From: Cyanobacteriota bacterium
GTDB taxonomy: Bacteria; Cyanobacteriota; Cyanobacteriia; Leptolyngbyales; Leptolyngbyaceae
Length of the DNA: 14,348 bases
Assembly: GCA_027482985.1 (NCBI GenBank)
Contig: JAIXVO010000613.1
Coordinates: 1-14,348 of the forward strand
Direction: 5' to 3'
How positions within the stretch are numbered: position 1 is the stretch's first letter; the number at the start of each line of letters is the position of its first letter. The position numbers and the translations under genes are program-made. Positions 2,442-7,125 of the stretch are shown here, piece after piece. The notes beneath the pieces are model-generated. The model did not search any database. It saw nothing but the letters and a program-made list of their open reading frames with translations, and had not been told where the DNA came from.

Positions 2442-3500
2442 CTACGGCACCTGCCAAATCCGTTGATGATACTGCTCCGGCGTGGCGTAGGGATCAACCA
2501 CCGGATGATCGTGGCTATGTCCATGCGCGTGGCCGTGATCGTGGTGATGCCCCTGATCGTGCCCGTGAGCGTGACCCTGATCGTGTCCGTGGCCGTGACC
2601 GTGAGGCTGGGCAGGGTCGATCGCGGCAAGGCGGAACTTACACATCTCGCAGTTCATGTTCACCTGACCGAGTTGGGTTTCGATTTCGCGATCGCGCATC
2701 ACGGCAAATAATTGCGGATGCAAGCCCATTTCTGGTAGGTTCACTAGCTCAATGTCGGGGGAGAGTTCCCGTTGCTGGGCGGTGATGTCGTAAATCTTTT
2801 TCACCAGGAGTCCGGTAAATAGGAAGTAGGGCAGCACGATGATGCGGCGCGGTTGGTACAGGCGGGCACGCCGGAAGCCTTCCTCTAGGCGCGGATGGGT
2901 GATACCGATGAAGCAGGTTTCCACGGTGCTGTAACCGCTGCCTTCCCAGACAATCCGGGCGAGTTTGGCAACATCTCCATTCGCATCCGGGTCGCTGGCA
3001 CCGCGTCCGACGAACAGCAGGACGGTGTCTTCCCGCGAGATGTTGTGCGGGTTATGTTCTGGCAAATCCAACTCAGCGAGGCGCGATCGCCACAGGTCGA
3101 GGATGCCGGGGGTGATGCCGAAATGCCGTCCGTAATGAAAATTCACCTGGGGATGGCGTTGCTTGGCGCGATCGAGTTCATTCGTTACGTCAAATTTGTT
3201 GTGACGGGCGGCAAACAGCAACACGGGCAAGGCGGAAATGTCGGTATAGCCCATCTCGACACATTGATCCACACCCTCCTGAATCGTGGGGCTGGTGAGT
3301 TCCAGGAAACAGGGAATGACGGGGCGGGAGGTATCCAGCTTTTGATACGCCTCGGCAAAATCGAGTAAACTTTGCCGTCCGTCGTTGTCCCGACTGCCAT
3401 GCCCAATCAGCAACAAGGGGCGTTGCAGGGGCAGCGGGGGTAGCGCGATCGCGGGAGCCGGATCGGGATGCCGGGATTCGATTCGATCTGAAGTCAGCAT
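2442..3500 (-). CDS. cbiX: Sirohydrochlorin chelatase CbiX, two-domain with His-rich tail
   Basis: This 352-residue class II chelatase inserts a metal (cobalt for B12, or iron for siroheme) into sirohydrochlorin. The first CbiX domain (about 28-142) carries the metal-site motifs [10 protein letters not shown] (31-40) and FAARHNKFD (96-104). The second (about 158-275) is a diverged copy in which GHGS is replaced by GRGASD (165-170), so only the N-terminal half keeps the catalytic His. Then comes MNCEMC (282-287), matching the MxCxxC Fe-S motif described for Bacillus CbiX, and a tail with 16 His between 300 and 332, a likely metal reservoir. The ATG at 3500 has CGGAG 11 nt upstream. A cobalamin riboswitch in the leader argues that cobalt chelation for B12 is the main role, although iron chelation cannot be excluded. 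Confidence 0.93.
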
Positions 3501-3516
3501 GAAGCGATAAACTCCG

Positions 3517-3535
3517 TTCCTGTGCGACGCAGGAA
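3517..3535 (-). promoter_or_regulatory. Leader hairpin next to the cbiX ribosome binding site (candidate expression platform)
   Basis: The minus strand reads TTCCTG-CGTCGCA-CAGGAA, a perfect 6-bp stem with a 7-nt loop. Its 3' arm contains AGGAA and abuts CGGAG (3512-3516), the likely ribosome binding site. The loop with its closing G reads GCGTC, complementary to GACGC in a riboswitch hairpin loop (minus strand of 3590-3595). A loop-loop contact of this sort is how many cobalamin riboswitches hide the ribosome binding site. The pairing here is inferred and could be chance. Confidence 0.5.
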
Positions 3536-3558
3536 ATAGAGTGAAGAAGCGCTCACCG

Positions 3559-3680
3559 GGGCATTCTGGCTGACCGAACCGGACCTGATCGCGTCATCAG
3601 GCAGTCTGATTCGGCTTACAGTTGCGGCACAGCGTTGGCTTCTCTGGTCATACAGTAGACTTACGCCTGACCGGATGCCC
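3559..3680 (-). promoter_or_regulatory. Cobalamin (B12) riboswitch upstream of cbiX
   Basis: Read on the minus strand, the leader holds the B12-box core GCTGTGCCGCAACTGTAAGC and a 3' box GTCAGCCAGAATGCC, close to the AGYCMGGAnaCCTGCC consensus. Helices support this. P1 is GGGCAT (3675-3680) with ATGCCC (3559-3564). GGTCA (3668-3672) pairs with TGACC (3646-3650). CCGAA (3610-3614) pairs with TTCGG (3574-3578). A hairpin CCTGAT-N6-ATCAGG covers 3584-3601. The usual GGTGnnAAnnCC hairpin between GGGAA and the core is absent: here GAGAAGCC leads straight into AACGCTGTGCC, so this is a compact variant. It should repress cbiX when cobalamin is abundant. I saw no clear promoter upstream in 3681-3760. 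Confidence 0.85.
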
Positions 3681-3766
3681 AAACCACCAAACTTTCCCCC
3701 AGCGATCGCTGTTCACGTTTGCCCCGTTATCTTATCTCATCCCCCCGCCTCACCGTATCCCGTGGG

Positions 3767-3802
3767 AGGGGGTTGGGTTTCGACCTCAGCACTCAAGTCG
3801 AA
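3767..3802. repeat. Composite palindromic element: GGAGGGGGTT-like head plus TTCGAC...GTCGAA dyad
   Basis: A G-rich head is followed by TTCGAC (3779-3784) and GTCGAA (3797-3802), a perfect 6-bp inverted repeat with a 12-nt loop. The G-rich head resembles the element at 14315-14348, suggesting a dispersed extragenic repeat family. Confidence 0.5.
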
Positions 3803-3847
3803 GGGCATTCAGCTGCACAGCCTCGCTCCAAGATCGCCCAGCCTCCC

Positions 3848-3911
3848 GATCTCCGACTTTTCCTCGCAGCGCCGCAGATAGCTTGGGTATCCACACCAGA
3901 AGTCGGAGATC
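3848..3911. repeat. 12-bp perfect inverted repeat GATCTCCGACTT / AAGTCGGAGATC
   Basis: The arms at 3848-3859 and 3900-3911 are exact reverse complements separated by 40 nt, and lie 25 nt past the ppk1 stop. Related AAGTCGGGGATC hairpins are, from memory, common extragenic repeats in cyanobacteria. The stem could slow polymerase after ppk1, but no T-tract follows, so a terminator role is uncertain. Confidence 0.65.
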
Positions 3912-3936
3912 TAACCCAACCGCGATCGCGGCTCCG

Positions 3937-6075
3937 TCAGGCTTGAGCCAGTTCCATGAGAATTTTTTGCGAACTTTGCTCAGGGCTATCGTTACTGGGG
4001 TGACGTTGGATGTAACGCCCATCGGGCTGGAGATCCCAGGCTTGGCGGTTGTCGGCTAGCAACACGCCCAGGATTTCCTGGAGGTCGATCATAATCGCTG
4101 GATCTTCGATCGGGACAACGGCTTCCACGCGGCGATCGAGGTTGCGTTGCATCCAGTCGGCACTGCCAATAAAGACTTCCTCTTGTCCGGCATTGTGGAA
4201 GTAGAAAATGCGGGAATGTTCCAGAAAGCGACCGACAATACTCACGACTCGAATATTGTCACTCACGCCTGGCACCCCTGGCCGGAGGCAACACATGCCG
4301 CGAATAATCAAATCGACCTGCACACCCGCCTGGGATGCCCGATAGAGTTCGGCAATGATGGCCGGGTCGATCAGAGAATTCATTTTGGCGACGATGCGGG
4401 CATGGTTCCCGGCGCGGGCGTGTTCGGCTTCGCGTTGAATCAGTGCCATCATGCGATCGCGTAAACTCACAGGAGCCACCAGCAACTTGCGATACTGCTT
4501 CTGGCGCGAGTAGCCCGTCAGGAAGTTGAACAAATCCGTCAGGTCAGCGCCCAACTCTTCCCGACAACTGAGCAGGCCAATGTCCGTATACAAACGGGCC
4601 GTTTTGGGGTTGTAGTTACCCGTCCCAATGTGCACATAGCGCCGCATCCGCCCTTCCTCTCGCCGCACCACCAGTACCACCTTCGTATGGGTCTTCAGCC
4701 CCACCAGCCCGTACACCACATGCACCCCGGCACTCTCTAATCGCCGCGCCCAGGTGATGTTATTTTCTTCGTCAAAGCGGGCTTTAATCTCCATCAAGAC
4801 CGCCACCTGTTTGCCATTCTCCGCCGCCTGCATCAAGGCATTCATGATGGGAGAATCGCCAGAGGTGCGATACATCGTCATTTTGATCGCCAGCACATTC
4901 GGATCGGCTGCGGCTTCGGTAATAAAGCGTTGGACGGTACGCGAAAAGGAATGGTAAGGATGATGCACCATCACATCCTGCTTGCGAATGATGGAGAACA
5001 GATCACATTCCACATCGGGATGCTCGGCATTGGCATCGCCGCCGCGCCGGAGGGCTGTGGGCACAGAGGAATGACAGGGTTGATCCTTCAACTGCGGCAG
5101 GGGGAGCGCCATGAAAGACATCAGATCCCGCAGGCAGAGGAGTCCCGTCGCCTCATAGACATCACCCTCGGTCAGATCCATTTCTTCCAGGAGCATCGCC
5201 CGCAGGTTTTCGGGCATCGAGGCATGCACTTCCAACCGGACGATTGAGCCACCCACCCGACGTTTGCGTAACTCTTGCTCGATCGCCAGTAACAGATCTT
5301 CGGCTTCATCCTCTTCCACCGTCAGGTCATTGTCGCGCGTCACGCGGAAGGGGTGGTACTCCTGAATGTTCAAGCCGGGAAACAGCGCCGCGAGGTTATG
5401 AGCAATCACCTGTTCCAGCGGTACGCCCGTCCACACGGGATTCACGCCTTTCTCCTGGCGTTGTAAATGCTCCGGCAGTTGCAAGAAGCGGGGCAGGCTA
5501 CTGGGCACCTTCACCCGCGCAAATAAGTCCTCCCCGTCTTCCTCATCGCGAATCACGACAGCCAGATTCAGGCTGAGGTTGGAAATGTAAGGGAAGGGGT
5601 GGCTGGGGTCGATCGCCAGCGGGGTCAGGACGGGAAAGATTTGTTCTTCAAAATATTGGTGAAAGTAGCGGCGCTGTTCCTGGTTGAGATCCATGTAATC
5701 CAGCAGGTAAACCCCGTGAGCCGCCAATTGGGGGCGTAACGCCTGGTCAAAATGTTGATGATGTTTGACCACGAGCGGACGGAGGCGCTGGCTGATCAAA
5801 TCTAATTGCTCCTGTGCCATGCGGCCATCGGCAGAGCGTTTTGTCACCTGAGCTTCCACCTGTTGCTTCAGGGCGGCCACCCGCACCATGAAATATTCAT
5901 CCAGGTTGGACGTAAAGATGGCGAGGAACTTGAGCCGTTCCAGCAGCGGCGTGCGCGGGTCAAAAGCTTCGTTTAACACCCGGTTATTGAATTCCAGCCA
6001 GCTCAGTTCCCGGTTGAAGTAATACTGGGGGTCGGTGACATCAATTTCAGGGGGTAGCGGCTTGCGTCTGGGCAT
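3937..6075 (-). CDS. ppk1: Polyphosphate kinase 1 (Ppk1)
   Basis: Ppk1 reversibly polymerises the gamma-phosphate of ATP into polyphosphate, the phosphate store of cyanobacteria. The 712-residue length fits the family. The N-terminal domain has YYFNRELSWLEFNNRVL (18-34) and LKFLAIFTSNLDEYFMVR (48-65). The catalytic domains show HHPYHSF (371-377), MEIKARFDEENN (428-439) and HVVYGLVGLKTHTK (452-465). VHIGTGNYNPKTARLYTD (481-498) and GSADWMQRNLDRRVE (637-651) follow. His463 (THTK) and His482 (VHIGTGN) correspond to the two essential histidines of E. coli Ppk, one of which is phosphorylated. Two starts are possible. The ATG at 6075 is called here; an in-frame TTG at 6081 overlaps the upstream stop (TTGA) and has the better-spaced GAGG, 7 nt away. 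It forms a tight unit with the upstream ~70-residue gene. Confidence 0.97.
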   Translation of the reverse strand: MPRRKPLPPEIDVTDPQYYFNRELSWLEFNNRVLNEAFDPRTPLLERLKFLAIFTSNLDEYFMVRVAALKQQVEAQVTKRSADGRMAQEQLDLISQRLRPLVVKHHQHFDQALRPQLAAHGVYLLDYMDLNQEQRRYFHQYFEEQIFPVLTPLAIDPSHPFPYISNLSLNLAVVIRDEEDGEDLFARVKVPSSLPRFLQLPEHLQRQEKGVNPVWTGVPLEQVIAHNLAALFPGLNIQEYHPFRVTRDNDLTVEEDEAEDLLLAIEQELRKRRVGGSIVRLEVHASMPENLRAMLLEEMDLTEGDVYEATGLLCLRDLMSFMALPLPQLKDQPCHSSVPTALRRGGDANAEHPDVECDLFSIIRKQDVMVHHPYHSFSRTVQRFITEAAADPNVLAIKMTMYRTSGDSPIMNALMQAAENGKQVAVLMEIKARFDEENNITWARRLESAGVHVVYGLVGLKTHTKVVLVVRREEGRMRRYVHIGTGNYNPKTARLYTDIGLLSCREELGADLTDLFNFLTGYSRQKQYRKLLVAPVSLRDRMMALIQREAEHARAGNHARIVAKMNSLIDPAIIAELYRASQAGVQVDLIIRGMCCLRPGVPGVSDNIRVVSIVGRFLEHSRIFYFHNAGQEEVFIGSADWMQRNLDRRVEAVVPIEDPAIMIDLQEILGVLLADNRQAWDLQPDGRYIQRHPSNDSPEQSSQKILMELAQA

Positions 6076-6381: not shown

Positions 6382-7125
6382 ATGGACAAGGCAACCCAAA
6401 ATACGTTGGAGCTGGCACGGCAGGGCGATCCAGGGGCGATCGCGGTGATTTTGACCTATCACCTATCCCAACGCTGGAATACCAGTGCCAGCGCCATTCG
6501 GCTGGGAAATTACCTATCGGTGTTGATTGATGTCAGCTATGCCATTCCCCAAGCCCGTCTGGTACAGCTCGTCCTCGACATTCTGCGGGATCTGGATATC
6601 CAAGGGATTACCGTGATCGAAATTAATGCGCGCCAAACGGACGATCCTGAGGTGCAATGGAGTCAGACAATAGAACTGGACTCTCCCACCCCCCTTACTA
6701 CCATGACCGATGCTCCGTCTGCTGACCTGACTCCCGCCGCCCCCCTCGATCTCACAACAGCCGAGCGATCGCCCGCTCCAGAACCCGCCAGCGACACCTG
6801 GGAACCCTCCCTCTATGCCTTCCTCCAGCGTCCCGAACTGGTCGCCCTGCTCGCCTTCGCGATCGTCCTGGTGCTGTGGGATTCGTATCTGGAATGGATG
6901 GGCGAAATTGACACCAGCCAGCCGTTAACCGGGGTGAAGCTGGCGCGCCGCTTAGGGGTGAGTGCCAGCACCCTGAGCAAGTTTAAATATCGCGCCAACT
7001 TTAGCGAGTGGAGCCGCGATCTCGACCCGGCAGGGATTGCCTGGAGCTACGAGAACAAACTGTTTGTGCCGCAACTTTATGGCTACCCCACGGGCGATCG
7101 CGAATTGGCTGGCTTAACTCACTAA
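6382..7125 (+). CDS. Unassigned protein: cyanobacterial N-terminal module, hydrophobic segment, C-terminal HTH-like module
   Basis: I cannot name a function for these 247 residues. Residues 5-97 ([20 protein letters not shown] at 8-27, then [21 protein letters not shown] at 79-99) resemble a module I associate with many cyanobacterial proteins of unknown role. Residues 100-140 are a Pro/Ala/Thr/Ser-rich linker. Residues 153-170 ([18 protein letters not shown]) form a hydrophobic stretch, either a short membrane helix or a buried helix. Residues 182-205 ([20 protein letters not shown]) look like a helix-turn-helix. [16 protein letters not shown] (215-230) recalls the tail of other cyanobacterial HTH-like modules. 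If the helix spans the membrane, the protein would be a membrane-tethered DNA or protein binder. The 3' end overlaps the convergent hydrolase gene by 12 bp. The ATG at 6382 has only a weak ribosome binding site. Confidence 0.8.

Follow-up and report, generated by a model that had tools for sequence, protein, structure and literature searches.

Our analysis suggests that the leader of cbiX in the window, as we call the whole stretch of 14,348 nucleotides studied here, carries a complete cobalamin (corrinoid) riboswitch whose ligand would lower the translation of CbiX, and we consider this the best explanation of the data, with a probability of roughly 0.87. The main evidence comes from R1, a covariance model built from 16 aligned orthologous cbiX leaders with a hand-written structure, the window itself being outside the training set. 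R1 matched the minus strand at positions 3513-3723 with 101.4 bits (E 1.9e-26) over all of its positions (1-160 of 160), and at E up to 10 the window contained no second match to it. The matched leader, which comprises the aptamer and the P13 hairpin, is separated by 12 nt from the ATG of cbiX and hence sits before a B12/cobalt gene. Rfam, when applied at its own gathering cut-offs, returned no match in the window, and in a permissive scan RF00174 gave only 13 bits (E 0.49) against a cut-off of 31.5, with model positions 1-189 spanned over 3541-3718 and a long insertion in loop 4. The covariance check of the original prediction therefore failed on the Rfam side and succeeded with the orthologue-trained model. 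Because the RF00174 alignment already covers 3541-3718, the boundaries first proposed for the element, 3559-3680, are too narrow, and the R1 match replaces them. At E up to 10 the window was listed under neither RF01482 (AdoCbl) nor RF01689 (AdoCbl-II), which form clan CL00101 together with RF00174, this listing keeping one match, the best, wherever clan matches overlap.

The orthologous leaders fared better in the same comparison. Seven of 11 (L005-L015) passed a cobalamin-clan cut-off at the Rfam gathering thresholds, namely RF00174 (L005, L009, L010 and L012), RF01482 (L011 and L013) and RF01689 (L015), while L006, L007, L008, whose leader is incomplete, and L014 stayed below. As the orthologues split over three models, an assignment to one Rfam class or to an upper ligand was rejected. 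Together with the R1 match, these leaders bear out the central claim of the original prediction, that a cobalamin riboswitch lies in front of cbiX, and it is on orthology and predicted structure, rather than on the Rfam score, that we identify 3513-3723 as a cobalamin riboswitch. Rfam as sole judge is too insensitive here, and its cut-offs probably miss the window switch through the enlarged loop 4 and sequence divergence. With RF00174 the window shares GGGAA, P4, L5, the CUG/CAG of P6, the 3' box and a flanking P1; it differs in its score below the cut-off, in a loop 4 of 48 nt and in a P6 extension that consists of one hairpin. The switch is of a known type, which the extra loop-4 hairpin makes mildly unusual, and it is real, complete and probably working.

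Read along the minus strand, the leader opens with an outer closing helix in which GUGAA (3716-3712) pairs with UUCAC (3545-3541), followed by P1-P3, whose 5' strand AGCGAUCGCUGGGG (3710-3697) forms 13 of 14 pairs with the 3' strand CCCCGGUGAGCGCU (3561-3548). The J3/4 motif GGGAA is found in the sequence at 3698-3694, with its GG and A columns invariant in the 16-leader alignment. In P4, as placed by both the R1 match and the fold, UUGG (3690-3687), after which comes the UG of the GGUG motif (UUGG-UG, 3690-3685), pairs with CCAA (3638-3635), and the fold puts a hairpin into loop L4 at 3683-3643. P5-L5 (UG-UGCCG-CA, 3631-3623) is the kissing partner of L13, as five kissing pairs and covariation indicate. 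It runs into the B12-box core GCCGCAACTGTAAGC (3628-3614), within which the 5' strand of P6, CUG (3621-3619, invariant in 16/16 training leaders), pairs with 3568-3566. A variable P6 extension hairpin, seen in both the minimum-energy and the centroid folds, occupies 3615-3573, and the 3' box AGCCAGAAUGCC, which we also give as AGCCAGAATGCC, spans the 3' strand of P6, J6/3 and the start of P3 (3571-3560). Core and 3' box were present in the sequence, as the original prediction had stated; both agree with the consensus of the 16 leaders, in which many columns of the 3' box are invariant or nearly so. The two further helices of that prediction exist as well, one being the hairpin in loop 4 and the other the extension of P6. 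All elements of the conserved core were thus found in the window: GGGAA, the GGUG of P4, the L5 core, the CUG/CAG of P6 and the 3' box. Downstream of the aptamer, P13, which was located from the training leaders and the kissing pairs, occupies 3535-3517, with loop L13 (CGUCGCA) at 3529-3523, and its 3' strand overlaps the Shine-Dalgarno region GGAACGGAG (3520-3512), whose GGAG stops 11 nt short of the start codon, an ATG at 3500. When the leader was folded freely, P1, P4 with its insert, P6 and P13 all appeared in the minimum-energy structure, at -84.9 kcal/mol vs -83.8 kcal/mol under the canonical constraint. The stretch 3541-3716 had a z-score of -3.06, with 2 of 200 shuffles as stable, and its centroid contained P1-P3, the P6 extension and a P4 that carries the inserted hairpin.

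These data leave little room for the version first proposed, a reduced riboswitch without P4 and with GGGCAT/ATGCCC as its closing helix, which we regard as very improbable. The two hexamers (3680-3675 and 3564-3559) are in fact perfectly complementary, as had been claimed; they do not form P1, however, because the actual P1-P3 is made by 3710-3697 and 3561-3548, and GGGCAT sits within the loop-4 insert. There it is poorly kept, since out of 33 other full-length cbiX leaders a single one (L096) has GGGCAU, GGGCGU or GGGUAU, and has it downstream of L5 and outside loop 4; among 23 other switches, the hexamer or a close variant was seen in one (L077). The GGTG hairpin reported as missing is present as P4, which the limit drawn at 3680 cuts off. 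P1-P3 is likewise there, and P1 is backed across relatives. Furthermore, the stretch 3555-3700, close to the one proposed, was no more stable than many shuffles (z-score -1.24; 21/200 as stable). Neither compact nor reduced describes the element, as the window stretch is longer than in most orthologues and the loop of P4 is enlarged.

Comparison among leaders supports the canonical helices and the kissing loop. Pairing is seen in 91.1% of the cells of the training alignment, vs 88.2% in column shuffles, with 0/500 shuffles as high, and structures slid along the same alignment paired 33-51% of cells; two of five covariation measures did not rise above shuffles in this alignment, that is, pair changes on both sides (111/500 as high) and the number of pair types (246/500). 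P1 was paired in 67.5% of cells on the fixed 16-leader alignment, with weak outer columns, which in our reading means that its arms shift in length. In an alignment-free arm-swap test, where each 5' arm was paired with its own 3' arm vs those of the other leaders, own arms of 21 leaders averaged -21.1 vs -14.2 kcal/mol for swapped arms, and none of 2000 permutations was as good. Single leaders could be weak, with foreign arms equal or better in 6/20 cases for L018 and 5/20 for L011, while the window arms had the lowest duplex energy of all 21 (-29.0 kcal/mol). Across the aligned orthologous leaders the core is kept, and the closing helix P1 appears conserved despite changes in its letters. The P13 stem was paired in 97.9% of cells in the 16 training leaders. 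All five pairs of the L5-L13 kissing loop can form in the window and in 49 of 56 switches (a count that leaves out L008 and L018, while our alignment A2 leaves out four weak antisense matches in L010, L008, L011 and L013). Over the 56 rows, pair 3 is C-G in 48, G-C in 3, U-A in 2 and unpaired in 3, and pair 4 is C-G in 46, G-C in 9 and U-G in 1. Two covarying pairs are good comparative evidence for the predicted kissing loop.

The most distinctive trait of the window switch is its loop 4, with 48 nt vs 7 nt in most switches measured. Seven nucleotides were in fact found in 26 of 34 cbiX leaders, a set that includes the gene remnant of G012 and leaves out the incomplete L008, and in each of the 23 other switches that were measured. 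Enlarged loops of 19-83 nt occurred in eight of the 34 cbiX leaders (window 48, L005 22, L006 21, L018 53, L031 83, L032 19, L036 22 and L083 21 nt) and in 0/23 of the others (Fisher p 0.011, relatedness being ignored), these 23 being the ones that were fetched, with many more R1 matches of the genome search outside the count. The window insert forms a hairpin of -15.1 kcal/mol, whose stability was equaled by 14/500 shuffles and is therefore moderate. Folded alone, six of seven inserts gave a single hairpin, and the seventh (L031) formed a two-branched stem. Compared with 500 shuffles, the stability was strong for L018 (0 as stable) and weak for L036 (23), L031 (35) and L006 (41), and for L005 and L032 it did not exceed that of the shuffles (99 and 102 as stable). 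On a CbiX tree of 40 rows, whose bootstrap has not settled and from which L090 (11 aa as read) was left out, the insert label required six changes, at least three of them forced by well-supported branches, and was not clustered (162/500 shuffles as low). As an insertion, the loop-4 hairpin is peripheral. That loop 4 of cbiX switches is a hot spot in cyanobacteria, where stem-forming inserts arose several times in place of the 7-nt loop, perhaps tuning inner contacts of the aptamer, ligand choice or folding speed for the cobalt-insertion gene only, is a doubtful proposal that we offer only tentatively.

Such a large insert, together with the Rfam score of 13 bits, might also be taken as the sign of a decaying relic that no longer functions, and a genome of the same genus does in fact hold a cbiX remnant behind a switch with an altered L5. 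In the window, however, cbiX is intact, the five kissing pairs form and the core and 3' box match the consensus, its P1 arms are the most stable among the leaders compared, and in six further leaders whose loop 4 is enlarged (L005, L006, L018, L031, L032 and L083) a full-length cbiX frame follows. Loss of function is, on balance, quite unlikely.

With regard to mechanism, the aptamer architecture, the kissing loop, P13 and the position before cbiX are shown by sequence comparison, and from them, by analogy, we infer the identity of the ligand, the sign of the response and a translational rather than terminating mode. In the proposed scheme, aptamer P1-P6 would bind a cofactor of the B12 type, which is probably the (pseudo)cobalamin that the cell itself makes, pseudocobalamin being thought to be the main product of cyanobacteria according to PMC10878165. 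Binding would favor the L5-L13 kissing loop and so stabilize the P13 hairpin over the ribosome-binding site, which would lower CbiX translation and shut the gene off when B12 is plentiful, as an end-product feedback on cobalt insertion. The presence of an L5-L13 kissing loop and of a P13 that overlaps the ribosome-binding site points to translational repression. If the window switch behaves like E. coli btuB and env8HyCbl, in which the kissing loop stabilizes P13 and promotes the hairpin at the RBS (PMC10653944), the effect of the ligand should be negative. In the window P13 overlaps the first part of the Shine-Dalgarno region only, with the GGAG just outside it. The same aptamer could instead act through transcription termination, mRNA decay or activation; corrinoid switches that terminate and that activate both exist (PMC10653944), a switch of Synechococcus sp. 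PCC 7002 has been postulated to act as a terminator, and in Anabaena deprived of cobalt one transcript was about 100-fold more abundant (both from PMC10878165). No terminator-like site was found in 3480-3960, however, and the overlap of P13 with the Shine-Dalgarno region also argues against these modes, which we judge improbable. Repression of translation remains our preferred reading.

In the cyanobacterium Anabaena sp. PCC 7120, a cobalamin switch has been described before in front of alr4027-btuB2. The genes under its control respond to cobalt supply and, unlike the gene behind the window switch, serve cobalamin uptake (PMC10878165), and no word beginning with cbiX occurs in the main text of that paper. 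Among the matches listed from the open-access literature, supplements being outside the search, no title or start of an abstract mentions a cyanobacterial cbiX switch, and we do not claim on this ground that such a switch is unpublished.

The gene controlled encodes a CbiX of the long two-domain form, or CbiX-L type (2442-3500, minus strand), which PF01903 matches in two stretches with an E value of 2.5e-60. The 4Fe-4S center of CbiX-L has the motif MxCxxC. The window protein shows the first-domain histidine motifs GHGSR and AARHNKF, the stretch MNCEMC and a His-rich tail, and with its two CbiX domains, first-domain histidines, MxCxxC and His-rich tail it would qualify as a CbiX-L. The CbiX-L of Bacillus megaterium likewise has two domains, histidines in the first of them and, at its C terminus, an extension that contains both a His-rich stretch and a 4Fe-4S center (PMC7689651); the window protein differs in being cyanobacterial and known here from sequence alone. 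A second, shorter CbiX occurs in all 10 genomes with the long form, and is of two domains in nine of them and cut by a contig end in the window genome (L050 1-597, minus strand, contig G000:C709). No R1 match was found in the L050 locus as fetched, nor near the shorter copies in the 10 genomes when coordinates were compared by eye. The CbiX-L marks and the existence of a second CbiX with no detected switch favor a role in cobalt insertion, and the preference for cobalt over iron voiced in the original prediction is therefore consistent with our findings and supported by them, if not proven. Sequence cannot prove a cobalt-only function, and a use of iron would be compatible with these marks. 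Against a firm claim stand the same-genus genome G012, which lost the long form and keeps only the shorter CbiX, and the best matches among solved structures, labeled sirohydrochlorin ferrochelatase (E 2.4e-32 and 3.4e-32), with cobaltochelatase chains ranking lower (E 5.5e-5). According to the review PMC7689651, metal specificity seems to be absent from most chelatases of this kind, and in Paracoccus a CbiX-L-like protein works in the making of siroheme.

The arrangement of switch and gene recurs beyond the window. A protein scan of the named genome contigs gave 21 cbiX loci, of which 15 had an R1 match before cbiX (in L008 only in part) and six had none (L014, L016 and L022-L025). A near-full-length long CbiX was found in 10/42 genomes of the order, the window genome included, and in nine of these 10 R1 matched directly before the gene, G028 being the exception; six of the nine (G013, G002, G027, G024, G026 and G004) correspond to training loci or copies of them, whereas G000, G015 and G025 are independent, and the search of the 42 genomes used stricter filters that may lose weak matches. 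Across the phylum, 57 of 386 genomes held a long CbiX at E up to 1e-60, and among 27 loci newly fetched from the best 30 of these 57 matches a switch preceded cbiX in 13 and was not detected in 14. Given the six named loci, the 14 further leaders and G028 in which no switch was detected, this form of regulation is not universal. In G028 (L029, about 2645-2578, minus strand) the promoter-like stretch is kept, no riboswitch was detected, and the ATG comes soon after the TAAGATA element. In G012 (L036 1244-1612, same genus as the window) the cbiX remnant consists of the leader, the start, ten codons to a stop and the His-rich C-terminal tail; the switch is present and most of the gene is lost, and the changed L5 fails two of the five kissing pairs. 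The window genome has two further cobalamin riboswitches, one (L001 1473-1679, minus strand) upstream of a DUF1636 gene, from which an unassigned frame separates it, the other (L002 1474-1614, minus strand) upstream of a gene for the CbtB cobalt transporter. A fourth, weak Rfam match (L004, 11.2 bits) was not found by R1.

Upstream of the switch, recurrence among leaders revealed a candidate cbiX promoter at 3728-3771 of the minus strand, made of the C-rich box CCCCTCCC and a -10-like TAAGATA, from which a transcription start near 3723 would follow. A C-rich box like CCCCTCCCCnGCATT that ends 17-23 nt, mostly 22-23 nt, before a TAAGATA-like element occurs in 29/56 cbiX leaders, nine of which have no detected riboswitch, vs a mean of 0.1/56 in 20 shuffles. 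The exact composite had seven matches in 42 genomes, six of them at cbiX, and the reversed control had three. A sigma-70 scan with a -35 box found no promoter-like site at the candidate, and the composite may be the site of a cbiX-specific factor. Downstream of cbiX on the same strand lies sipA (regulatory protein SipA, NF045913; 2014-2295), which by eye also follows closely behind the cbiX remnant of L036. Elsewhere in the window, a 247-aa open frame on the plus strand (6382-7125) matched nothing in Pfam or NCBIfam at E up to 0.001.

At the level of annotation, these results correct the record on an element that falls below the Rfam cut-offs and that had been taken for a reduced form. The repeated occurrence of inserts in loop 4 marks a site at which a well-studied riboswitch tolerates insertion. 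Two genomes offer natural controls, G028 with its promoter and no detected switch, and G012, where most of the gene and two kissing pairs are gone. If the proposed mode of action holds, the cobalt-insertion step would be tied to B12 feedback in a cyanobacterial lineage.
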